DNA of 49,775 nt from Lachnospiraceae bacterium (GTDB lineage Bacteria > Bacillota > Clostridia > Lachnospirales > Lachnospiraceae): the NCBI GenBank assembly GCA_016290905.1, contig JAEEVO010000013.1, positions 1 through 49,775 on the forward strand, written 5' to 3'. Positions 5,292 to 36,102 of this stretch are shown one piece after another. Position 1 is the first letter of the stretch. Each line of letters starts with the position of its first letter. The position numbers and the translations under genes were made by a program. The notes beneath the pieces are model-generated. The model saw only the letters and a program-made list of their open reading frames with translations, searched no databases and had not been told where the DNA came from.

Positions 5292-6878
5292 TTAATAGTT
5301 TTCAAAATATTTATCGATTCCGTTAGCCATACCCTGGACTATCTTATCCTGGTATTGGGAATCTGCCATTTTCTTGTCTTCATCGGCATTTGTCATATAG
5401 CCCATCTCAACTATGGTAACGGGTACCTTGGACCAGTTTATGCCGCTCATGGTGTCTGTTTCCCAGACATATCTCTTTTTCCCGCCGGTTGTAGCGACCA
5501 TACCGTCAAGAACGTAGTCGGACAAAGCCCTGCACTGCTTGTATATGCCTGATAAGTACGGATTGGATTTTGTGGGGCAAATGGTCTCTATCCCGTATAT
5601 GGACTTATCATCATTTCCGTTTGCATGAACCCTGATGAACACATCGGCGTTGTTTTCGTTTGCTATTTCCGCTCTTTCAATATTTGAAATGTCGACATCA
5701 TTTGTGGTACGCGTCATTATAACGGTATATCCGCGTGAAGTAAGTTCGTCCCTAAGCTTAAGTGCGACGATCAGATTAAGCTCATACTCATCAAGTCCGG
5801 ATACTATACCCGAAGTTCCCGAAGAAACCTTTGCCTTCTTTTCGGAAGATCCCGGTGCTACCGGTTCCGTATTGTAATTACCTTTGCTCTGATGTCCGGG
5901 ATCTATGCATACGATCTTGCTTGAGGAAGTATTCTTCCCTGTTCCGGTATTTTCAGTTTTGTTATTGTTATTCTGTTCACCGTTATTATTTCCCGGTCCT
6001 TCTGCCGGACCGTTCTGAGTATTACTGTCATCAGGACTGTTATATACTCCGGTGATCAGCCTTGTTGCGATATAACAGGTCTTTCCTTCATATTCAACCT
6101 TGGTCCACTCAGCGTTGTAGCCGACTCTCTTAAGTCTCTGACTCTTCGGGAGATTTGCCACAAGCGTGCTTTCCGTTGACGCTGCTTCCCTGAGGTTTAC
6201 GTCGTCCTTGGTGCTTACATAGTCTGATTTTTCCTCAAACTTAAAGCCCTTGTCATTATCCTGGGCAGTATTCTGTGTGTTATCCTGAGGATTGTTTGTC
6301 GCCATTTCGTTCTTTATCAGACGTGTGGCTATATAGCACTCCATGTCATTATAGATAACTCTTGTCCATTCAGCATTATATCCCGTACGCTCAAGTACCT
6401 TGCTCTGCTCAAGATAAGCAACTATCTTGATGCCGTCTTCCGATGACGGACGCTCTCTTAAGTTTACACCGGCCTTTGTCTCTACGAAGTCCTGCTTTTC
6501 GGTAAATACAATACCCATTTCAAGATCATCCTGTTTGTCGGGCTCTTTTGGTCCGTTGTCGTCGGGCTCCGTTGTATCGGGATCCTTCGTATCCGGGTCT
6601 TTTGTATCCGGATCATCCTTGATCTCAGTCGAAGACTGTCCGCTTTCAGAGGTATTGTTCTGAGAATCCTTCTTTCCGGATTCGTTTTTGTCCTTATCTT
6701 TGTTTACATTTCCCTTATCTGCTTCGGCAGTTTTCTCGGTCTTTGCTCCGCTTCCTGAGTTTTCTTCATTATTATTGTCTCTATTTTCAATGCTGCCTAT
6801 AATGATCAGACAGACAAGGATCACTATCAGACCTGCCAGAATAAACGGCATGATCCTCAATACCTTATTTAAGTTCAT
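5292..6878 (-). CDS. N-acetylmuramoyl-L-alanine amidase with two SH3 domains
   Basis: Secreted or membrane-anchored wall hydrolase that cleaves the MurNAc-L-Ala bond. Layout of the 528 residues: an N-terminal membrane anchor (about 9-28), a long Asp/Lys/Glu/Asn-rich linker with a [14 protein letters not shown] repeat, two bacterial SH3 domains (about 130-190 and 220-278, each with a VNLRE motif), an Asn-rich linker, and a C-terminal amidase_3 zinc domain (about 323-526). Zinc-site motifs are visible: DPGHQ, a Glu in the YELN segment, RVHANG, and IVEMGYMTN. Start has GGAGA upstream. It is 27 bases after ahcY and 30 before dapF. Confidence 0.93.
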
Positions 6879-6905
6879 GTCTTCTCCTTTCTCAAACCGT
6901 TCTCA

Positions 6906-8153
6906 TCATAAACCCTTATTCAAATAGTCTTCCTGTTCTTTTGTCAGTACATCAATATCTTTTCCGAGGCACTGCAGTTTTCTTAATGCCACAGCCCTGT
7001 CCACATCTGCCGGAACCTTAACCAGCTTCTCTTTTATCTTTCCGCGGTTTTCAACAAGATATTTTGCGGAAAGAGCCTGGATTGCAAAGCTCATGTCCAT
7101 GATTTCTGCGGGGTGTCCGTCACCGGCCGCAAGATTAACCAGCCTGCCCTCTGCAAGAATGTATACCCAGTTTCCGTTTTCAAGCTTGTAGCCCATGATG
7201 TTGTTTCTCATCTGAGCCGTCTCAACAGCCATCTCCTTAATGCCCGCAACGTCAACCTCGACATCGAAATGTCCTGCGTTGCAGCATATGGCTCCGTTCT
7301 TCATCCTTAAGAAGTCTTCTTTTCCTATTACCCTGCAGCATCCCGTAACGGTCACGAAGAAATCTCCCTTTGATGCTGCTTCTCTCATCGGCATGACTTC
7401 AAATCCGTCCATTACCGCTTCTATGGCACGTATCGGATCTATCTCGGTCACAATGACCTTGGCTCCCATGCCCTTTGCCCTCATGGCTACGCCCTTGCCG
7501 CACCATCCGTATCCTGCCACAACAACCGTTTTCCCGGCAACGATAAGATTAGTTGTACGGTTTATGCCGTCCCATACCGACTGTCCGGTACCGTAACGGT
7601 TATCAAAGAGATGCTTGCAGTCGGCGTCGTTTACCAGTACCATGGGGAACTCAAGCTCGCCTTTTTCAGCCATGGCTTTAAGCCTTATGATACCTGTTGT
7701 AGTTTCCTCACAGCCGCCGATCACGTAGCTCAGCCTGTCCTTCATATCTGTATGAAGCTTATGTACCAGGTCTCCGCCATCGTCTATAATGATGTTACAG
7801 TCGTTCTCCAGAACATGTGTCAGATGCTGTTCATATTCTTCTGCAGTGGTACCGTGCCATGCATGTACCTCGAGTCCTTCCGAAACCAGTGCGGCAGCCA
7901 CATCATCCTGCGTGGAAAGGGGGTTGCTTCCGGTTATGAACATCTCGGCTCCGCCGCTCTTCAATACTTCACAGAGATAAGCCGTCTTTGCCTCGAGATG
8001 TACGGAAAGCGCTATTTTTATGCCCTTAAAGGGCTGTGTACGTTCAAAATCCTTTTTTATATCGGTAAGAAGCGGGCAGTTTCTCCTGACCCACTCAATC
8101 TTACGCATACCGGATTCCGCCAAGGAAATGTCCCTTATTTCAGAATTATTCAT
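6906..8153 (-). CDS. ahcY: S-adenosylhomocysteinase
   Basis: Hydrolyses S-adenosylhomocysteine to homocysteine and adenosine, using tightly bound NAD. Seen: the SEIRDISLAESG start typical of the family, the NAD-binding loop GYGWCGKGVAMRA, the substrate-site DDGGD, and the NAGHFDVEVD segment. The ATG at 8153 (about 415 residues) fits. An in-frame ATG at 8195 overlaps the -10 hexamer of the predicted promoter, so it is unlikely to be in the mRNA. An ATG at 8165 sits with no spacing after GGAAAGG. First gene of the operon ahcY-amidase-dapF-LTA-synthase-like. Confidence 0.96.
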   Translation of the reverse strand: MNNSEIRDISLAESGMRKIEWVRRNCPLLTDIKKDFERTQPFKGIKIALSVHLEAKTAYLCEVLKSGGAEMFITGSNPLSTQDDVAAALVSEGLEVHAWHGTTAEEYEQHLTHVLENDCNIIIDDGGDLVHKLHTDMKDRLSYVIGGCEETTTGIIRLKAMAEKGELEFPMVLVNDADCKHLFDNRYGTGQSVWDGINRTTNLIVAGKTVVVAGYGWCGKGVAMRAKGMGAKVIVTEIDPIRAIEAVMDGFEVMPMREAASKGDFFVTVTGCCRVIGKEDFLRMKNGAICCNAGHFDVEVDVAGIKEMAVETAQMRNNIMGYKLENGNWVYILAEGRLVNLAAGDGHPAEIMDMSFAIQALSAKYLVENRGKIKEKLVKVPADVDRAVALRKLQCLGKDIDVLTKEQEDYLNKGL

Positions 8154-8193
8154 ATTTTTGCTCATCCTTTCCGAAAAAACACCGTTCAGATTC

Positions 8194-8222
8194 ATTATAG
8201 CCGATAATTATGACTAATTCAA
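8194..8222 (-). promoter_or_regulatory. Promoter of the ahcY operon
   Basis: On the minus strand, TTGAAT (8217-8222) and TATAAT (8194-8199) are separated by 17 bases. This places the transcript start near 8186 and explains why the upstream in-frame ATG is not the start of ahcY. Confidence 0.75.
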
Positions 8223-8313
8223 CCTAAAAATTATTTTAATTATTAACGAAAAATTCATAATTTTAATATACGCAGTTCATATTTACGTTTTATACTTACG
8301 TCAGTGAAAAGCA

Positions 8314-28678: not shown

Positions 28679-29689
28679 TTACAATATTTGTATACCGTTG
28701 GCAAGTGCTTCCTTTTTCATGTCATCGGGCCATACTGAGGAATGAACCTCTCCGATATGTGCCTTTCTTAAGAAGTACATGCACATTCTCGACTGTCCGA
28801 TACCGCCGCCGACAGTATAAGGCAGTTCCTTATTTAAGATTGCTTTCTGGAACGGAAGCTCCGCACGCTCCTCGCAGCCTGCAAGCTTTAACTGGGAAGC
28901 AAGTGAAACCTCATCCACTCTTATACCCATTGAAGAAATCTCAAAGGCCGAATCAAGAACGGGATAATAAACAAGGATATCTCCGTTTAAATCCCAGTCA
29001 TCATAGTCGGGAGCACGTCCGTCATGCTTTTCGCCGCCCTTGAGCTCCTTGCCTATCTGCATAAGGAATACCGCTTTTTTAAGACGGCAGATGTTATTCT
29101 CTCTCTCCTTGGGAGTTGCGTCCGGCCACATGTTTTCAAGCTCCTGTGTGGTCACGAAGCTTATCTCCTCGGGAAGTATCTCTTCGATGTAAGGATATTT
29201 GTCCGCAATGTAATGCTCCGTATCCTTTAACGCCTGATAAATACGTCTTACAATAGACTTAAGTGTCTCCGTATTCCTCTCGTCCTTCAGTATGACCTTT
29301 TCCCAGTCCCACTGATCTACATATATCGAATGGTAATTGTCAAGTTCCTCGTCTCTCCTGATCGCGGTCATGTCGGTATAAAGTCCCTCGCCGTAGCCGA
29401 AACCGTAATCCTTAAGAGCCATCCTCTTCCACTTTGCAAGTGAATGAACAACCTCAACGCTTGCATTGTCAATATCCTTTATATTAAATGAAACGGGGCG
29501 TTCAACTCCGTTCAGGTTATCGTTAAGTCCGGATTCGGGTCTTACAAACAGGGGTGCGGATACTCTTGTGAGATTAAGCTGTTTTGCAAGCTGACGCTCA
29601 AAATGATCCTTTATATATTTGATTGCATGCTGAGTCTCTTTTATGCTCAGCTTCGAGGAATAATCCTCCGGTATGATAAGCTTTGACAT
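28679..29689 (-). CDS. asnA: Aspartate--ammonia ligase
   Basis: Ammonia-dependent asparagine synthetase with a class II aminoacyl-tRNA-synthetase-like fold. It forms asparagine from aspartate, ammonia and ATP. The N-terminal SKLIIPEDYSSKLSIKETQ is canonical, as are SVDQWDWEKV-like YVDQWDWEKV, DSAFEISSMGIRVD and GGGIGQSRMCM. The ATG at 29689 with GAAGGGA upstream gives 336 residues, the usual length. Farther in-frame TTG is not supported. It has its own promoter and a leader with a hairpin that covers the ribosome binding site. It is followed by a terminator-like hairpin, so it seems monocistronic. Confidence 0.96.
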   Translation of the reverse strand: MSKLIIPEDYSSKLSIKETQHAIKYIKDHFERQLAKQLNLTRVSAPLFVRPESGLNDNLNGVERPVSFNIKDIDNASVEVVHSLAKWKRMALKDYGFGYGEGLYTDMTAIRRDEELDNYHSIYVDQWDWEKVILKDERNTETLKSIVRRIYQALKDTEHYIADKYPYIEEILPEEISFVTTQELENMWPDATPKERENNICRLKKAVFLMQIGKELKGGEKHDGRAPDYDDWDLNGDILVYYPVLDSAFEISSMGIRVDEVSLASQLKLAGCEERAELPFQKAILNKELPYTVGGGIGQSRMCMYFLRKAHIGEVHSSVWPDDMKKEALANGIQIL

Positions 29690-29699
29690 ATGTTTTCGT

Positions 29700-29713
29700 C
29701 CCTTCGGGGACTT
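29700..29713 (-). promoter_or_regulatory. Hairpin over the asnA ribosome binding site
   Basis: GTCCC-CGAA-GGGAC is a perfect 5-bp stem with a tetraloop. Its 3' arm contains the GAAGGGA that serves as the ribosome binding site, so folding could limit initiation. Confidence 0.45.
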
Positions 29714-29772
29714 CCTTTCCTTATCCTTATAAAATACGGACAATATTCGAGGTGTTACAAAAACACTTTTTT

Positions 29773-29861: not shown

Positions 29862-30362
29862 TCACTCATTACGGAAGCATTCGAGGTTTTCCTGCGTGGA
29901 AAGAAAACCGTTACTGTATCTCCTGTCCCGGGTCACTTCTATGTCAAACCAGTCGGGCTTTACGAATCTGCCGGCCGCCTCTACGCTTTCAAATTCAACC
30001 TCGGCGAATATAAGGCCTTCAAGCTTTCCGTGGAACACATCAAGCTCTATCCGGTACTCTTTTCCCATGGATTCATAGGGAATGATATATCTGGTCTTCG
30101 CTATGACATTCCCGTCGACCTTGGTCCTTAAATGCTCATACGCTTCCTGCGTCAGCGGTGCTTCAATCTCCTCGTTGCAGATCGGTGCGTCCTTTTCCTT
30201 CCGATTCTTCTTCAACTTGTAGGTGAAGATATAATCGTCATTGCTTTTTCTTATCCTCAGAACCGGGGAACGGTTCAGATAGCCCTGCTCTATCTCCTTC
30301 TTCTTATACCTGTCCAGATCCTCGGGCAGTCTTTTTATCAGATATTTGTGCTCTATCTCCAT
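29862..30362 (-). CDS. CYTH domain protein
   Basis: A 166-residue protein of the CYTH/triphosphate-tunnel superfamily, whose members hydrolyse or use inorganic triphosphate and organic triphosphates. The signature ExExK is MEIEHKYLI at the N-terminus. Further charged tunnel residues are seen in LRIRKSNDDYIFTYKLK and LIFAEVEFES. The ATG at 30362 follows AGGAGA at seven bases. Longer in-frame starts fall in the promoter region. A single gene, divergent from the damage-response cassette. Substrate not determinable from sequence. Confidence 0.88.
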   Translation of the reverse strand: MEIEHKYLIKRLPEDLDRYKKKEIEQGYLNRSPVLRIRKSNDDYIFTYKLKKNRKEKDAPICNEEIEAPLTQEAYEHLRTKVDGNVIAKTRYIIPYESMGKEYRIELDVFHGKLEGLIFAEVEFESVEAAGRFVKPDWFDIEVTRDRRYSNGFLSTQENLECFRNE

Positions 30363-30424
30363 GGTGGTCTCCTGAAATGTGTTTGTAGCCGCTGATGCTA
30401 ACGGATTGCTCCGCTGCAAACATT

Positions 30425-30453: not shown

Positions 30454-30466
30454 TAGAGGATATTTA

Positions 30467-30532
30467 CACGTTTGTGAATATATAATCCCGACATTTGACA
30501 CGTTCGTGAAATTTACTGTTGACACGTTCGTT
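30467..30532. promoter_or_regulatory. Three repeated operator-like boxes before the XRE cassette
   Basis: CACGTTTGTG (30467-30476), CACGTTCGTG (30499-30508) and CACGTTCGTT (30523-30532) are near-identical; the middle one is a CACG-TT-CGTG palindrome. They are preceded by TTTA or TTGA in each case. The third overlaps the -35 hexamer, so a bound protein would block transcription. The neighbouring XRE protein is the obvious candidate. They do not match the Firmicute LexA consensus GAAC-N4-GTTC. Confidence 0.7.
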
Positions 30533-30547
30533 CCTATGTGGTATACT
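30519..30547 (+). promoter_or_regulatory. Promoter of the XRE-IrrE-polymerase cassette
   Basis: TTGACA (30519-30524), a 17-base spacer and TATACT (30542-30547). Transcription would start near 30554 and give a leader of about 200 nt. The 391 bases from 30363 to 30753 contain no gene: they hold the CYTH promoter, three operator boxes, this promoter, and the structured repeat. Confidence 0.82.
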
Positions 30548-30701
30548 ATAGCAAAACGAAAATATCCCCCACCTCTTAGTGTAGCGAAGATGGGGAGATA
30601 TCTTTGTTTCAGGCGGGGTTCAAGCCTCGACTGAAACGAGATTCGGAGCATCATTTTTTATACCGAGGAAACACCGAAGGCGTTTTCGAGGTGACATTAA
30701 C
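30547..30701 (+). repeat. Structured repeat element, copy 2, in the leader of the cassette
   Basis: Inverted copy of 11-164 with the same four hairpins. It starts in the -10 region, so it forms most of the 5' leader. Differences from copy 1 mostly weaken stems (for example an A opposite a C in the last hairpin), although the GTTTCAG/CTGAAAC stem remains complete. The ending GTTTTCGAG can pair with CTCGAAAAC right after it (30702-30710). Confidence 0.72.
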
Positions 30702-30753
30702 TCGAAAACAGGTAGATTTTGAGAACATTCGTGTACTAAAAGGAGGTTTCAGC

Positions 30754-31290
30754 ATGGCAGCAACCATCAGAAAAGACGCACCCTACAAGGCTTTTGCCGA
30801 AAGGCTCACCGCGCTTCGCACAAACGCCGGCATGACACGCGCGGAGCTTGGCGATAAGGTGGGCGTGGCAGGCCGTTCCATAATAAATTACGAAAACGGT
30901 GAACGCATTCCCTACGGTGACGTTTGCGCAAAGATGGCAGAGGTATTCGGCATAACTACCGACGAGCTTCTGGGCATTGAGAACTCCGCTCTCGCCATGG
31001 CGCGTGAGGAGGCTATTGACCGCATGCGCGACATAAACGGGAAATCCGGCGCCGAGCGCCTGCAGCAGGTATATGCCGACGCAGCAAACCTTGCCGGAGG
31101 AGACTTAAGCGACGAACAGCTTCTTGAGTTTTCCCTCGAGATGAGCAAGATGGCCATGCTCGCCCAGCAGCGTTTAAGAGAACGGCACAGCGGTAAGAAA
31201 TATCAGTCCACAGTAACAGAAAAAGCCGAACAGACAAAGATTGCCGTAAAGGCCATTGACGACGCCATCATCGCCATGAATACACCCTGA
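30754..31290 (+). CDS. XRE-family transcriptional regulator
   Basis: A 178-residue DNA-binding protein with an N-terminal Cro/cI-type helix-turn-helix (about residues 11-68: FAERLTALRTNAGMTRAELG, VAGRSIINYENGERIPYG) and a mostly helical C-terminal part. It probably represses its own promoter through the CACG boxes (inference). ATG follows AAAGGAGG. A longer in-frame reading from 30604 would run through the structured leader and is unlikely. It is followed at 53 bases by an ImmA/IrrE-type protease, the usual partner that cleaves or inactivates such repressors. Confidence 0.9.
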   Translation: MAATIRKDAPYKAFAERLTALRTNAGMTRAELGDKVGVAGRSIINYENGERIPYGDVCAKMAEVFGITTDELLGIENSALAMAREEAIDRMRDINGKSGAERLQQVYADAANLAGGDLSDEQLLEFSLEMSKMAMLAQQRLRERHSGKKYQSTVTEKAEQTKIAVKAIDDAIIAMNTP

Positions 31291-31342
31291 TGGGACCGAC
31301 CGCTTTTAAATCCTTTAAACAATCCTTCACAGGAGGTTTACC

Positions 31343-32074
31343 TTGATAAGCAACAGTATTTTTTCAATCATAGAAGATAAAATAAAACAGGCCGGTTCTT
31401 CCGATCCACGTGAGGTTGCCGATCACTTCGGCATACTTGTGGTCGACCTTTTCGGTACCATTGCGGGATATGCCACACACTACTCTTTTCTCCCCGTAAT
31501 AGGACTTAACCGAAAGCTTGATGACATGTGGTACATGTTCGGCGGCTGGCATGAACTCACCCATATATTTGACGGGCACATCTATGAGAGCTCCTTTACC
31601 AACGGACATTACGACAACGGCTTCTTTTCACAGAGCGTCGACAGCCGTACCGTCTCCGTTCACGAGAAGACTGCCAATCTTGTCTCCGCAAACGTCACCA
31701 TATCCGACGAGGATGTTTTCAGGGTAACAGGCTATAACACCCCGTCCATGTGCTCATACCGTGAGCTTAAAGCCATACAGAAGGAGCTTACGCAGACCTT
31801 TAAGCAGCTGCAGTCTTCCGCAGATTCTCCCATCGTCAGGACGAAGCTACAGGAGCTTCGCAGGCAGCTTGAGAAGACCGGTTCCTCCATAGCCGATCTT
31901 GAATTTGATATAATGCTGTCCGATTCTTATAAGAGCTTTTCAGATATGGCTGAGGAGCTCGGCATATCCGAACGCATACTGCATTACAAACTTGAAGCGA
32001 TGCGGCTCCGCGGGATCGATATTGACCGTCAGGAGCTTGAGCACTATGATACGATGTTCGCCGGGGCTATATGA
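31343..32074 (+). CDS. ImmA/IrrE-family zinc metallopeptidase
   Basis: A 243-residue COG2856-type protease. The catalytic motif HELTH is in GGWHELTHIFDGHIYES, residues about 69-73. In known pairs (ImmA with ImmR, IrrE with DdrO) the protease cuts the XRE repressor after DNA damage. The C-terminal third contains a second helix-turn-helix-like stretch (MAEELGISERILHYKLEAM). The start is TTG, supported by AGGAGG six bases upstream. It is encoded directly after the XRE gene and 15 bases before the polymerase gene. Confidence 0.88.
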   Translation: MISNSIFSIIEDKIKQAGSSDPREVADHFGILVVDLFGTIAGYATHYSFLPVIGLNRKLDDMWYMFGGWHELTHIFDGHIYESSFTNGHYDNGFFSQSVDSRTVSVHEKTANLVSANVTISDEDVFRVTGYNTPSMCSYRELKAIQKELTQTFKQLQSSADSPIVRTKLQELRRQLEKTGSSIADLEFDIMLSDSYKSFSDMAEELGISERILHYKLEAMRLRGIDIDRQELEHYDTMFAGAI

Positions 32075-32089
32075 TCAGGAGACATTATT

Positions 32090-33499
32090 ATGGGATCACA
32101 TGAGGACCGGGCATATATCGCCATAGATATGAAGTCCTTCTATGCTTCCGTGGAGTGTGTCGCACGAGGCTACGATCCTCTCACGACCAATCTGCTGGTC
32201 GCAGACGACGGCAGGAGCGACAAGACTATCTGTCTGGCCGTTTCACCGAGCCTCAAGGCTATCGGAGTGCCGGGACGCCCGAGACTTTTTGAAGCCAAGA
32301 AGGCCATATCGGATTATGAGCGAAGGACCCATACCAAGGTAAAATATATTACGGCCATACCGCGTATGGCTCTTTACGAAAAAGTTTCCGCACAGATATT
32401 TTCGATCATCCTCCACTACGCCGCACCGGAGGATGTTCATGTATACAGCATTGATGAAAGCTTCATAGACGCCACTCCCTATCTCTACAGATATACGGAG
32501 GAGGCCGCCGCGCAGCAGCTTCATCCCGCGCACGTCATGGCTATGACCATAATCAGGGAAGTACTCCGCGCCACGGGGATCACCGCCACCGTCGGCATAG
32601 GTACAAACCTTTATCTGGCCAAGGTCGCCATGGACATAGTTGCAAAGAAAGCGAAACCCGACGCTGACGGAGTCCGTATCGCCGAGTTAAACGAAGACAG
32701 CTATAAATATCTTCTCTGGGATCACAGACCTCTCACCGATTTCTGGATGCTCGGTCCGGGTAAAGCCCGCAGGCTTGAGAACGCCGCAATGTATACCGTA
32801 GGCGATATAGCCGAGCGTTCGCAGTGGGATGAGGACTGGTTTTACAAGCATTTCGGCATCGACGCAGAAATACTCATATCACACGCCTGGGGTCACGATC
32901 CCGTGACCCTTCATGATATAAAAGACTATCGTTCCGATAACCACAGCCGCTCATCCGGTCAGGTACTCCCGCGCCCTTATAAGTTTGACGAAGCACGTAA
33001 CGTGTTCTCGGAGATGATAGACGGTCTATGTGCGGATCTGTTTTCCCGCTCTCTTATATCCCCGCGTTTTTCCTGGTGGGTTTCCTACGATTACAAATCA
33101 CTCGAAGCGGTACCCGACTATGACGGCGATATATGCATGGATTTTTACGGGAGGATGCACCCAAAGCACAGCAACGGAACCGTAAAGATGCCGTTTGAGA
33201 CCAACTCCGTCTCTACCGTTGCGCCCCTCCTGCTCTCCTCATTTGACAGCAGAACCGACCACCGCCTTCTATTCCGCCGTCTCGGCGTATGCGCGGATGA
33301 TGTCAGTGACAGCGGCGGATGTTACCAGTTAAGTTTTATCGTTGATTATAATGCTTTGCAGAAAGAACAGCAGCTTCAGCTTGCTCTCTCTGAAGTCAGG
33401 TCCAGATACGGCTCCAACAGTATTTTTAAAGGGAAAAACCTTTTGGAAGGAGCTACGCAGCTTGAAAGGAACTCACAGATAGGCGGTCACAGGGCATAG
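32090..33499 (+). CDS. Y-family DNA polymerase (UmuC/UvrX-type)
   Basis: Translesion DNA polymerase of 469 residues. Catalytic acidic motifs are both present: YIAIDMKSFYASVEC near the N-terminus and VYSIDESFID near residue 120. Thumb/helix-hairpin-helix and little-finger regions follow (KAKPDADGVRI, WMLGPGKARRLENAAMYTVGDIA). The arrangement with a YolD-like gene after it resembles B. subtilis uvrX-yolD-type pairs (family knowledge). ATG 15 bases after the protease gene with AGGAGA upstream. Error-prone bypass of lesions is expected. Confidence 0.93.
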   Translation: MGSHEDRAYIAIDMKSFYASVECVARGYDPLTTNLLVADDGRSDKTICLAVSPSLKAIGVPGRPRLFEAKKAISDYERRTHTKVKYITAIPRMALYEKVSAQIFSIILHYAAPEDVHVYSIDESFIDATPYLYRYTEEAAAQQLHPAHVMAMTIIREVLRATGITATVGIGTNLYLAKVAMDIVAKKAKPDADGVRIAELNEDSYKYLLWDHRPLTDFWMLGPGKARRLENAAMYTVGDIAERSQWDEDWFYKHFGIDAEILISHAWGHDPVTLHDIKDYRSDNHSRSSGQVLPRPYKFDEARNVFSEMIDGLCADLFSRSLISPRFSWWVSYDYKSLEAVPDYDGDICMDFYGRMHPKHSNGTVKMPFETNSVSTVAPLLLSSFDSRTDHRLLFRRLGVCADDVSDSGGCYQLSFIVDYNALQKEQQLQLALSEVRSRYGSNSIFKGKNLLEGATQLERNSQIGGHRA

Positions 33500-33515
33500 C
33501 GAAAGGATCATGCTT

Positions 33516-33749
33516 ATGGAAGAAAAAGCCAATACAGACAGGCTTGGATATATGAAAATGCCTGAAAACTTCAAATACCGTTCCGTTCTTTTAAAAGGCA
33601 GACCGAAGCATAACGGGCTTGACGACTTCTCCGCCAAGCATCCGCCCATGCCGGTCTCAAAATGGGCAAAAATCTTCTCTCCCTTTGACGCCCTGCGCGG
33701 TTTCGGGGATGAGATCAGACAGAAAGAAAAATCTTCGGAGGACGACTGA
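33516..33749 (+). CDS. YolD-like protein, probable Y-polymerase partner
   Basis: A 77-residue basic protein. The C-terminal segment KWAKIFSPFDALRGFGDEIRQ resembles the core of YolD-like proteins, which are encoded next to Y-family polymerases and are proposed functional replacements for UmuD. The ATG at 33516 is eight bases from AAAGGA. The in-frame ATG at 33510 is too close. It overlaps the next gene by one base (TGATG), so translation is coupled. Confidence 0.72.
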   Translation: MEEKANTDRLGYMKMPENFKYRSVLLKGRPKHNGLDDFSAKHPPMPVSKWAKIFSPFDALRGFGDEIRQKEKSSEDD

Positions 33750-34372
33750 TGTGCTGCAGATATTATATGGAAATGTCTCCCGAGCTGCGTCCGTATGTAC
33801 AAGCGGCAAATATGAGCAGGCTCGGCTTAAAGATGATAGCAAGACTCGGAAAACCTCTTGTGACCAAGGGGGAAGTCCGCCCCTGCGACATGGTTCCCGT
33901 CATCGCTCCCAACAGCAGCGGACAGAGATCCGTTTATCCCATGATATGGGGCTTTAACGTAACAGGGCTTGATAAGCCAGTGATAAATGCAAGAGTTGAG
34001 ACCGCCCACGAAAAAAAAGCCTTTAAGGAGGCCTGGACATCACACCGCTGCATAATACCCGCATCCTGGTATTTCGAATGGGCTCCGTCAAAGGACGGTA
34101 AATCAAAAGAAAAGGATAAGTATGCCCTTCAGCCGTCCGGTGCATCCGTTACATACCTTGCAGGTATATACCAGATGCAGCAGTACAGGGAGCTTACTTA
34201 TCCCGTATTTACAATACTCACCAGAGAGCCGTCCGAGGAGCTTCGAAAGATCCACGACCGCATGCCTCTTATACTTCCGTCATCCGCCATAGATGACTGG
34301 ATAAATCCAAAATCCGATGTTGACAATCTGCTAAAGCTTGCCGTTACCGACCTTGTCGCCGAAAAAGCTTAA
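33749..34372 (+). CDS. SOS response-associated peptidase (SRAP/HMCES-like)
   Basis: A 207-residue SRAP-domain protein. Cys2, exposed after Met removal, forms a stable covalent bond with abasic sites in single-stranded DNA, protecting them. Active-site residues are visible: MCCRYYM at the start, NARVETA (Asn), SWYFEWAP (Glu), and IHDRMPLIL (His). The usual MCGRY is MCCRY here. It is the last cassette gene. Its stop overlaps the stop of the convergent mutase gene by 4 bases, so there is no separate terminator between them. Confidence 0.93.
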   Translation: MCCRYYMEMSPELRPYVQAANMSRLGLKMIARLGKPLVTKGEVRPCDMVPVIAPNSSGQRSVYPMIWGFNVTGLDKPVINARVETAHEKKAFKEAWTSHRCIIPASWYFEWAPSKDGKSKEKDKYALQPSGASVTYLAGIYQMQQYRELTYPVFTILTREPSEELRKIHDRMPLILPSSAIDDWINPKSDVDNLLKLAVTDLVAEKA

Positions 34373-36102
34373 GCCAGCTTTTTGATAGCTGCACCAACCT
34401 CATCAAAGAGCTTGTCAGCGTCTTCCATGGATGTACCCTTGATACCGTAATAGAACTTTATCTTTGGTTCCGTACCTGAAGGTCTCACGCAGCACCATTG
34501 ATCGTTTTCAAGAACATAGTAAAGAACGTTCGACTCAGGAAGATCTGTCTTTCCTTCGGTTCCGTCAACCAGGTTCTTTACTGTATGAAGCTTATAGTCC
34601 CTAGCCTCCAGAACCTTAAATCCGCCGAGCTCGGTAATAGGATTTTTCCTTAAGTTATCAAGGATGCCGGCTATCTTTTCGGCACCGTCCGCACCCTTCA
34701 TGGTTACCGAAACGGCTCCCTCACGATAGTAGCCGTACTCCTCGTACATTTCTACCATTCTGTCCCAAAGGCTCTTTCCCTGAAGCTTGTTATAAGCTGC
34801 TGCCTCACAGAGTCCCATAACGGCCGCACATGCATCCTTATCCCTTGCATGCGTACCTATAAGACATCCATATGACTCCTCATATCCGAATACGTAATTA
34901 TAATCCTTTACGCCCTGTTCAAAAAGCTTTATCTGCTCTCCGATATACTTGAAACCGGTAAGGCACTCTATAAGCGTACATCCGAACTTACGTGCAACAA
35001 CATCGCACATATTTGTCGTAACAATGGTCTTTATAACAGCAGGATTTGCAGGAAGAAGCCCAAGCTCCTTACGTGCATTAAGCTGATAATCACAGAGCAG
35101 TGTTCCGCTCATGTTTCCGGTAAACGCCATGTACTCGCCGGTCTTGGAATCCTTTGCATAAACTCCGAGCCTGTCTGCGTCCGGGTCGGTTGCGAGAACC
35201 AGATCCGCATTTACCTTTTCCGCAAGCTCAAGCGCAAGCTTGAATGCGGCCTTGTCCTCGGGATTGGGATAGCCGACGGTCGGGAAATCCCCGTCCGGAA
35301 GCTCCTGCTCGGGGACAACATATACCTTCTTAAATCCAAGCTCCGAAAGCACTCTTCTTACCGGCAGGTTTCCCGTGCCGTGAAGAGGCGTATATACTAT
35401 AGTGATATCTTCCGCAACCTTCTTTATGACTTCAGGCCTTAATACGAGCTTCATGAGCTCCTCGTTGTACCTGTCGTCTATATCCTTACCTATTATATGG
35501 AAAAGACCTGCATTAACGGCATCCTCCTCGGACATGGTCTTTAAGGAAAGATAATCGGTTATCGCATTAACCTCGTTTATAATCCTGGTATCCCAAGGAG
35601 GAGTTATCTGTGCTCCGTCCTCCCAGTAAACCTTATATCCGTTATACTCCGAAGGATTGTGGCTGGCAGTGATGACTATGCCCGCGATACATCCCAGCTC
35701 CCTTACAGCAAACGAAAGCTCGGGAGTGGGTCTTAAAGAATCAAAAAGATAGGTCTTGATACCGTTAGCATTAAGGCAGAGCGCTGCTTCCCTGCTGAAC
35801 TCCACAGACATATGTCTTGAATCATAAGCTATGGCTACACCCTTGTCCTGTCCGCCTTCACGTAAGATGACATTGGCAAGACCCTGTGATGCTTTACGAA
35901 CGGTATAGATATTCATCCTGTTCGTTCCGGCACCGATCACACCGCGAAGCCCGGCAGTACCGAACTCGAGACTGCGGTAAAAACGGTCCTTGATCTCCTC
36001 TTCGTTGCCTGCAATTGATTCAAGCTCTTTTTTTGTTTTCTCATCAAATGCATCGGATGATATCCATAAACAATACTCTTCCATATAGTCTTTGTTTTCC
36101 AT
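34369..36102 (-). CDS. Phosphoglucomutase/phosphomannomutase (alpha-D-phosphohexomutase)
   Basis: Interconverts hexose 1- and 6-phosphates, feeding UDP-glucose or GDP-mannose and thus cell-envelope glycans. Seen: the catalytic serine loop TASHNPSEYNGYK, the metal loop DPDADRLG, the sugar-binding GYEESYG, and the phosphate-binding VRPSGTEPKIKFY near the C-terminus. The 577-residue length matches the PgcA/Pgm2 type. It lies 17 bases after the CheX-like gene, on the same strand. Substrate preference (glucose or mannose) is not decided by sequence. Confidence 0.94.
   Translation of the reverse strand: MENKDYMEEYCLWISSDAFDEKTKKELESIAGNEEEIKDRFYRSLEFGTAGLRGVIGAGTNRMNIYTVRKASQGLANVILREGGQDKGVAIAYDSRHMSVEFSREAALCLNANGIKTYLFDSLRPTPELSFAVRELGCIAGIVITASHNPSEYNGYKVYWEDGAQITPPWDTRIINEVNAITDYLSLKTMSEEDAVNAGLFHIIGKDIDDRYNEELMKLVLRPEVIKKVAEDITIVYTPLHGTGNLPVRRVLSELGFKKVYVVPEQELPDGDFPTVGYPNPEDKAAFKLALELAEKVNADLVLATDPDADRLGVYAKDSKTGEYMAFTGNMSGTLLCDYQLNARKELGLLPANPAVIKTIVTTNMCDVVARKFGCTLIECLTGFKYIGEQIKLFEQGVKDYNYVFGYEESYGCLIGTHARDKDACAAVMGLCEAAAYNKLQGKSLWDRMVEMYEEYGYYREGAVSVTMKGADGAEKIAGILDNLRKNPITELGGFKVLEARDYKLHTVKNLVDGTEGKTDLPESNVLYYVLENDQWCCVRPSGTEPKIKFYYGIKGTSMEDADKLFDEVGAAIKKLA

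Follow-up and report, generated by a model that had tools for sequence, protein, structure and literature searches.

A five-gene translesion and abasic-site operon in a Lachnospiraceae genome, probably governed by a local XRE-M78 repressor-protease switch

The 49,775-nucleotide (nt) contig JAEEVO010000013.1 of the Lachnospiraceae bacterium assembly GCA_016290905.1 (the window, taken at its full length) carries what is, judging by its sequence, a real and tight chromosomal translesion operon of five genes, encoding in order an XRE-family repressor, an M78 (ImmA/IrrE-type) metallopeptidase, a UvrX/YqjW-type Y-family DNA polymerase, a YolD-like protein and an SRAP (HMCES/YedK-type) protein. We consider it likely that the operon is under a local two-protein XRE-M78 switch that works like ImmR/ImmA. 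Proteases of the ImmA/IrrE type are known to trigger mobile elements as well as the Deinococcus response. A first-pass annotation, made from the DNA letters alone, had recognised the same five genes and had suggested that the protease removes the repressor after damage, independently of LexA. The gene identifications stood up to Pfam scans, comparison with relatives and alignments; damage induction, cleavage of the XRE protein and LexA independence are inferences.

All five genes lie on the forward strand, separated by gaps of 52, 15 and 10 nt, with the YolD-like and SRAP genes overlapping by one base. The XRE gene (30754-31290) encodes 178 amino acids (aa) with 83% identity to the XRE protein of the orthologous locus L048, and the protease gene (31343-32074, TTG start) encodes 243 aa with 66% identity to the L048 protease; the polymerase (32090-33499), YolD-like (33510-33749) and SRAP (33749-34372) genes encode 469, 79 and 207 aa, respectively. 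The XRE, polymerase and SRAP proteins all exceed their Pfam cut-offs (HTH_3, 1.3e-11; IMS, 3.1e-25; SRAP, 1.5e-37). The polymerase retains the acidic motifs of the Y family and a C-terminal tail that is invariant across five aligned members, and these catalytic motifs, this tail and a YolD-family partner in the operon are the features of the UvrX/YqjW type; its best NCBIfam match, PRK03103, falls below that model's cut-off. Besides its domain, the SRAP protein has the invariant N-terminal catalytic Cys2 and other motifs in alignment. The YolD-like protein reached no Pfam family, PF08863 included, and aligns only with the N-terminal part of longer YolD-like relatives, two of the six tested (L120 and L062) passing PF08863 while the YolD-like protein of L122 fails; we call it YolD-like because of this alignment to longer relatives, some of which pass.

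We place the protease in M78 because its relative from locus L117 (phmmer 3e-63) exceeds the family cut-off, at 25.6 bits, and because its HExxH motif (aa 70-74, codons at 31550-31564 on the forward strand) and an E..AN motif, within a HEKTAN stretch, align with ImmA-like M78 relatives. The zinc-binding HExxH is kept in all 16 M78-like proteins compared, and an XRE gene adjoining the gene of an HExxH-bearing M78 protease is the gene-pair arrangement of the ImmR/ImmA type. The window protease is longer than its classical relatives in L119, L123, L124 and L197 (177-195 aa). Neither the Pfam scan nor an AlphaFold2 model revealed a recognisable sensor domain in it, and Pfam scans of two proteases, read up to E 1, gave no GAF family. 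A profile search of solved structures gave no meaningful match to the window protease, nor was it matched in viral contigs, plasmids or phages. PADLOC matched the XRE protein at its HTH end only and the other four proteins not at all.

As the first-pass annotation had it, a single promoter with operator-like boxes precedes the operon. The sigma-70-like promoter TTGACA-17-TATACT (30519-30547, forward strand), which is a consensus match only, agrees with the consensus at 11 of 12 positions and is by far the best of six promoter-like sites, a number near chance (4.2 in shuffles); terminator-like sites in the region likewise occur at about chance frequency (4 vs 3.8 in shuffles). Operator-like boxes of the form TTKACACGTTYGT begin on the same strand at 30463, 30495 and 30519. 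Box 1 is TTTACACGTTTGT (30463-30475; repeat family D1, 85% to the reference copy), box 2 is TTGACACGTTCGT (30495-30507, with a dyad-like CACGTTCGTG at 30499-30508) and box 3, again TTGACACGTTCGT (30519-30531), holds the -35 hexamer and is the copy conserved in L048 and L117. As many box copies arose in only one of 100 dinucleotide shuffles.

The box TTGACACGTTYGTTCC occupies the same promoter position in the orthologue L048 and in L117, a locus of another genus (6139-8252) whose XRE-M78 pair is the nearest relative of the window pair outside the genus, and a box-promoter block, TTGACACGTTYGTTC, is common, in register, to the 400-nt promoter regions of all three. Between the window and L117, every shared 15-mer (one mismatch allowed) derives from the box and lies in promoter register, plus one in the second L117 box, and a base-shuffled L117 region shared any such 15-mer with the window in one of 100 trials. 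L048 has this block in common with the window, together with a further box pair and an upstream block that we take to belong to the divergent gene. Directly after XRE-M78, L117 has a gene other than a polymerase; ORFs (open reading frames) of no known function follow and the contig ends within 0.8 kb, so that a polymerase could lie further on. Because L117 has the same XRE-M78 subfamily with a different next gene, the box goes with the XRE subfamily, and because it keeps its promoter position in L048 and in L117, whose pair is not directly before a polymerase, it is most likely, on this comparison, the XRE operator. The core ACACGTTYGT was not enriched in the genome's own assembly, which is 81% complete (9 matches, three of them in this promoter, vs 15 for the reversed control), and none of the five matches inspected by eye, out of six outside the operon, resembled this promoter; for both reasons the switch looks local.

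The gene order is not strain-specific. All five genes occur in order in the window, in L048 (genome G215, same genus), in L122 (G299, another genus) and in L208 (G543, another family), that is, in four genomes, three genera and two families, and in L197 and L214 the order XRE-M78-polymerase runs directly into a contig edge. The window operon is flanked by ORFs at 29862-30419 and 34369-36102, both on the reverse strand. The nearest upstream ORF is of the same type as in L048; beyond it the window has an extra ORF (28679-29743) ahead of the next ORF that the two loci share, and on the downstream side their genes are different. The protease subfamily is rare, since it matched two of 24 genus genomes and four of 200 family genomes, own genome included in both counts and the other three family matches weak. 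The polymerase is common, with matches in 75 of 99 genomes at E 1e-3.

What, then, stands before this polymerase elsewhere? We defined a close polymerase clade as matches over 700 bits, plus the partial L059, giving 38 loci, which represent the best-scoring polymerase matches in three samples instead of a random selection; among these we saw an XRE-M78 pair at eight, an HTH-S24 repressor at seven, XRE alone at one and no regulator at 22, with the reservation that L190, L191 and L192 have less than 500 nt of upstream sequence, so that regulators may be missed there. The XRE-M78 pair is co-directional before the polymerase in six (window, L048, L122, L197, L208 and L214) and divergent in two (L204 and L215). 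The HTH-S24 repressors are probably HdiR-like. An SRAP gene lies downstream at 21 of the 32 loci with downstream sequence, at none of the six cut at the polymerase, and upstream in L196 and L203. In L049 and L051 the HTH-S24 gene is separated from the polymerase by a small ORF (about 108 aa) that resembles a hydrolase on inspection by eye.

Outside the clade, L118, L120 and L121 have the order XRE, M78, small ORF, polymerase, with YolD next in L120 and L121, and the gut contig MT836086 has XRE, M78, polymerase, YolD. In the other nine phage or plasmid stretches inspected no XRE-M78 pair adjoins a polymerase (L263 has a weak S24 match). When we counted by eye the ten XRE matches spanning more than 110 model positions, window excluded, six adjoined a Y-family polymerase (L118, L120, L121 and L122 in line; L124 and L125 divergent). 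A conserved protein of about 90 aa is encoded between M78 and polymerase outside the clade (L120 5629-5901, reverse strand; L121 7063-7335, forward; L118 5193-5492, reverse; also L258), and the L120 version had no Pfam match. In L124 and L125 the XRE-ImmA pair lies divergently to a Y-family polymerase of another kind (about 60 bits against the polymerase model), which again connects this type of switch with translesion genes, and in L125 two ORFs resembling a transposase pair lie between XRE and M78.

The consensus of LexA-type sites is GAACN4GTTC, and we used this form because in none of nine genomes was the strict CGAACN4GTTCG more frequent than its reversed control. No site within one mismatch was found in the 400 nt around the XRE promoter of the window, L048, L117, L122, L197, L208 or L214; the earlier report of no LexA-like site thus holds for the window promoter, which lacks the site that would place it in a LexA regulon. 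Near the polymerase (-250 to +60 of its ORF, with the 38 loci themselves supplying the background rate), four of the 22 clade loci that show no protein regulator carry an exact site (about 0.2 expected) and 12 carry one within one mismatch (about 2.4 expected). LexA-like boxes and S24 repressors answer DNA damage, and it is because relatives put the same polymerase behind such boxes or behind an HTH-S24 repressor of the self-cleaving type that the damage switch proposed by the annotation is plausible.

We envisage the switch as follows. The XRE protein would repress its own operon through CACGTTCGTG-like boxes, one covering the -35 hexamer, as box position and conservation suggest. Upon DNA damage the co-encoded M78 protease would be triggered by single-stranded DNA or a RecA-linked signal and, if it behaves like ImmA towards ImmR and IrrE towards DdrO, would cleave the XRE protein. 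The operon would then be expressed, supplying the UvrX-type polymerase, with the YolD-like protein as its arm, to bypass lesions, and an SRAP product that would trap abasic sites, these being the functions known for the three families. When the signal ends, repression would presumably return because the XRE gene sits in the same operon.

Several observations weigh against this picture. The window protease itself matches Pfam Peptidase_M78 weakly (E 0.038; 14.2 bits against a cut-off of 22) and has HELTH instead of the HE[LI]GH found in 12 of the 16 M78-like proteins. Its AlphaFold2 model, built from a two-row alignment, was unusable (predicted local distance difference test, pLDDT, of 55, and below 50 over residues 30-118, catalytic motif included), being confident in one helical stretch only, at about residues 121-190. 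The repetition of boxes described by the annotation applies to the window, with three, and to L117, with two close copies, but not to the orthologue L048, with one. In a twelve-mer repeat test, shuffles did as well in one of 100 for the window, two for L120, two for L121 and six for L214, and the result was not significant in five of the nine XRE-M78 promoters (L048 98, L122 57, L197 71, L208 89 and L118 51 of 100), for which reason repeated boxes are not a general rule. Four of the ten XRE matches counted above have no Y-family polymerase in their stretch (L117, L119, L123 and L127), although two of these stretches end soon after at a contig edge. LexA-type sites also occur beside protein regulators: the 16 clade loci with one have an exact site in one (L214, before the polymerase; about 0.1 expected) and a site within one mismatch in six (about 1.7 expected), several inside coding sequence, and the XRE promoters of L118, L120 and L121 each bear three or four exact sites with fixed spacing. 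Some XRE-M78 versions may therefore be under or beside LexA.

Could the operon be SOS-controlled after all, with LexA acting indirectly or at a degenerate site and the XRE-M78 pair only tuning expression? The exact sites just described speak for this, as does LexA itself, which exceeds the cut-off in 20 of the 23 further genomes of the genus, including G215, a carrier of the same operon. The search for LexA in the window's own assembly, incomplete as noted, gave no match, and for these reasons the lack of LexA control can be stated for this site but not for the cell. We nevertheless regard SOS control as unlikely, given the seven promoters, those of the window, L048 and L117 included, that lack even a one-mismatch site, and given that the conserved box is a different sequence tied to the XRE subfamily. 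The promoters of L118, L120, L121 and L060 carry four GAACN4GTTC-like sites at the same spacing (52, 14 and 23 nt). In L060 the array has been retained ahead of a nearly identical polymerase, beside which we saw no XRE-M78 pair; this suggests either loss of the pair or original LexA control.

It is more improbable still that the pair is a toxin-antitoxin (TA)-like or mobile-element immunity module that came to lie upstream by chance, reads through into the repair genes and serves its own stability. Pairs of XRE and COG2856 are common in mobile elements and have been grouped with TA-like systems (PMC2701414), the polymerase tree is not reproduced by the trees of XRE and M78, and the nearest kin, L117, has no polymerase as its next gene. 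What tells against chance is that the slot before this polymerase is filled recurrently, in several genera, by different XRE-M78 subfamilies at short gaps, and a study of the Streptococcus mutans pair reports no sign that ImmA is toxic in Escherichia coli (PMC10233336). We attach least weight of all to the idea that the protease answers a signal other than damage, such as a nutrient, oxidative or cell-cell cue, which would make the operon a stress-mutagenesis module. ICEBs1 can, according to the same source, be activated through RapI-PhrI signalling as well (PMC10233336), and the lack of a recognised sensor domain in the window protease would fit; relatives place the same cassette, however, behind LexA-like boxes or S24 repressors.

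In the polymerase tree the window groups with L048 and L197 (support 97), and these with L193, L122 and L208 (96), whereas in the M78 and XRE trees the window and L048 group with L117 (90 and 92, respectively), L122 with L123 (88 and 97), and L197, L208 and L214 with L124 and L125 (87 and 89). The co-directional XRE-M78 label requires five changes on a 46-row polymerase tree that includes eight rows outside the clade. Because the XRE and M78 trees support each other on the main groupings and conflict with the polymerase tree, the switch module is apparently exchangeable, and its exchange between loci seems the simplest reading of these trees, which are quick trees with L123 on a long branch in that of XRE; fast divergence of the pair may be an alternative. 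We lean slightly towards a broader statement, namely that the damage switch of bacterial translesion operons is exchangeable. On this view different lineages would have connected a single polymerase(-YolD-SRAP) clade to LexA boxes, to an HTH-S24 repressor acting as one protein, or to XRE-M78 pairs drawn from no fewer than three distinct subfamilies, and some bacteria would steer mutagenesis and the protection of abasic sites by a signal that is read by a protease and is distinct from LexA.

One further feature of the window concerns the operon's 5' leader, most of which is a dispersed repeat of about 155 nt with strong hairpins (30547-30701, forward strand) that starts right after the -10 hexamer; a second copy lies at 9-163 on the reverse strand. 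The repeat has sharp ends, at least 35 matches in its own genome and matches in 13 of 24 genus genomes, and it had no Rfam match. Of 200 shuffled sequences, three fold as well as the leader (z -2.2), and the orthologous L048 leader is short and without the repeat.

If the proposed switch is correct, Lachnospiraceae-like bacteria would be able to uncouple mutagenic repair from SOS. As sister species have the same effectors under LexA-like boxes or S24 repressors, a comparison between them could show how the type of switch affects mutation and the survival of abasic-site damage. In the literature, judged by titles and abstract openings and, for long lists, among the top entries, we found no XRE-M78-polymerase-YolD-SRAP operon, which is weak evidence of absence with subscription papers and supplements outside that scope. 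The effector half of the operon resembles the putative UvrX/YqjW-YolD mutasome, which likewise joins a UvrX-type polymerase to a YolD-like partner; its description lists an N-terminal-only YolD partner as one of three variants and notes an SRAP-like link to UmuC-like polymerases (PMC12926913). Unlike the window operon as we read it, the Bacillus subtilis examples are predicted to be under LexA (PMC6511836). SRAP genes are known beside UmuC- and DinB-type genes, and the accessible accounts of such neighbourhoods describe no operon of the present order. HTH-S24 repressors occupy the same slot before the same polymerase clade (7 of 38 loci), but there one protein of the self-cleaving type does what the window would divide between a repressor and a separate protease.

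Two XRE-M78 systems offer the closest comparison. The first-pass annotation called the switch DdrO/IrrE-like, and it is so, loosely, in having an XRE repressor and an M78 protease over DNA-repair genes, as in Deinococcus. In that system PprI (IrrE) cleaves DdrO once activated by single-stranded DNA, a C-terminal GAF-like domain is needed for the activation (PMC10904395), and the regulon spans multiple genes, whereas in the window pair we found neither a C-terminal GAF-like domain nor a genome-wide regulon with a shared motif, only one local promoter. With ImmR/ImmA of ICEBs1 and TnSmu1 the window pair shares adjacent XRE and M78 genes and a local target, and in that known system ImmA cleaves ImmR after DNA damage in a RecA-dependent manner (PMC10233336). 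The difference is that the window pair heads a chromosomal translesion and abasic-site operon instead of element-excision genes. By analogy, then, the pair appears to work more like ImmR/ImmA than like DdrO/IrrE.

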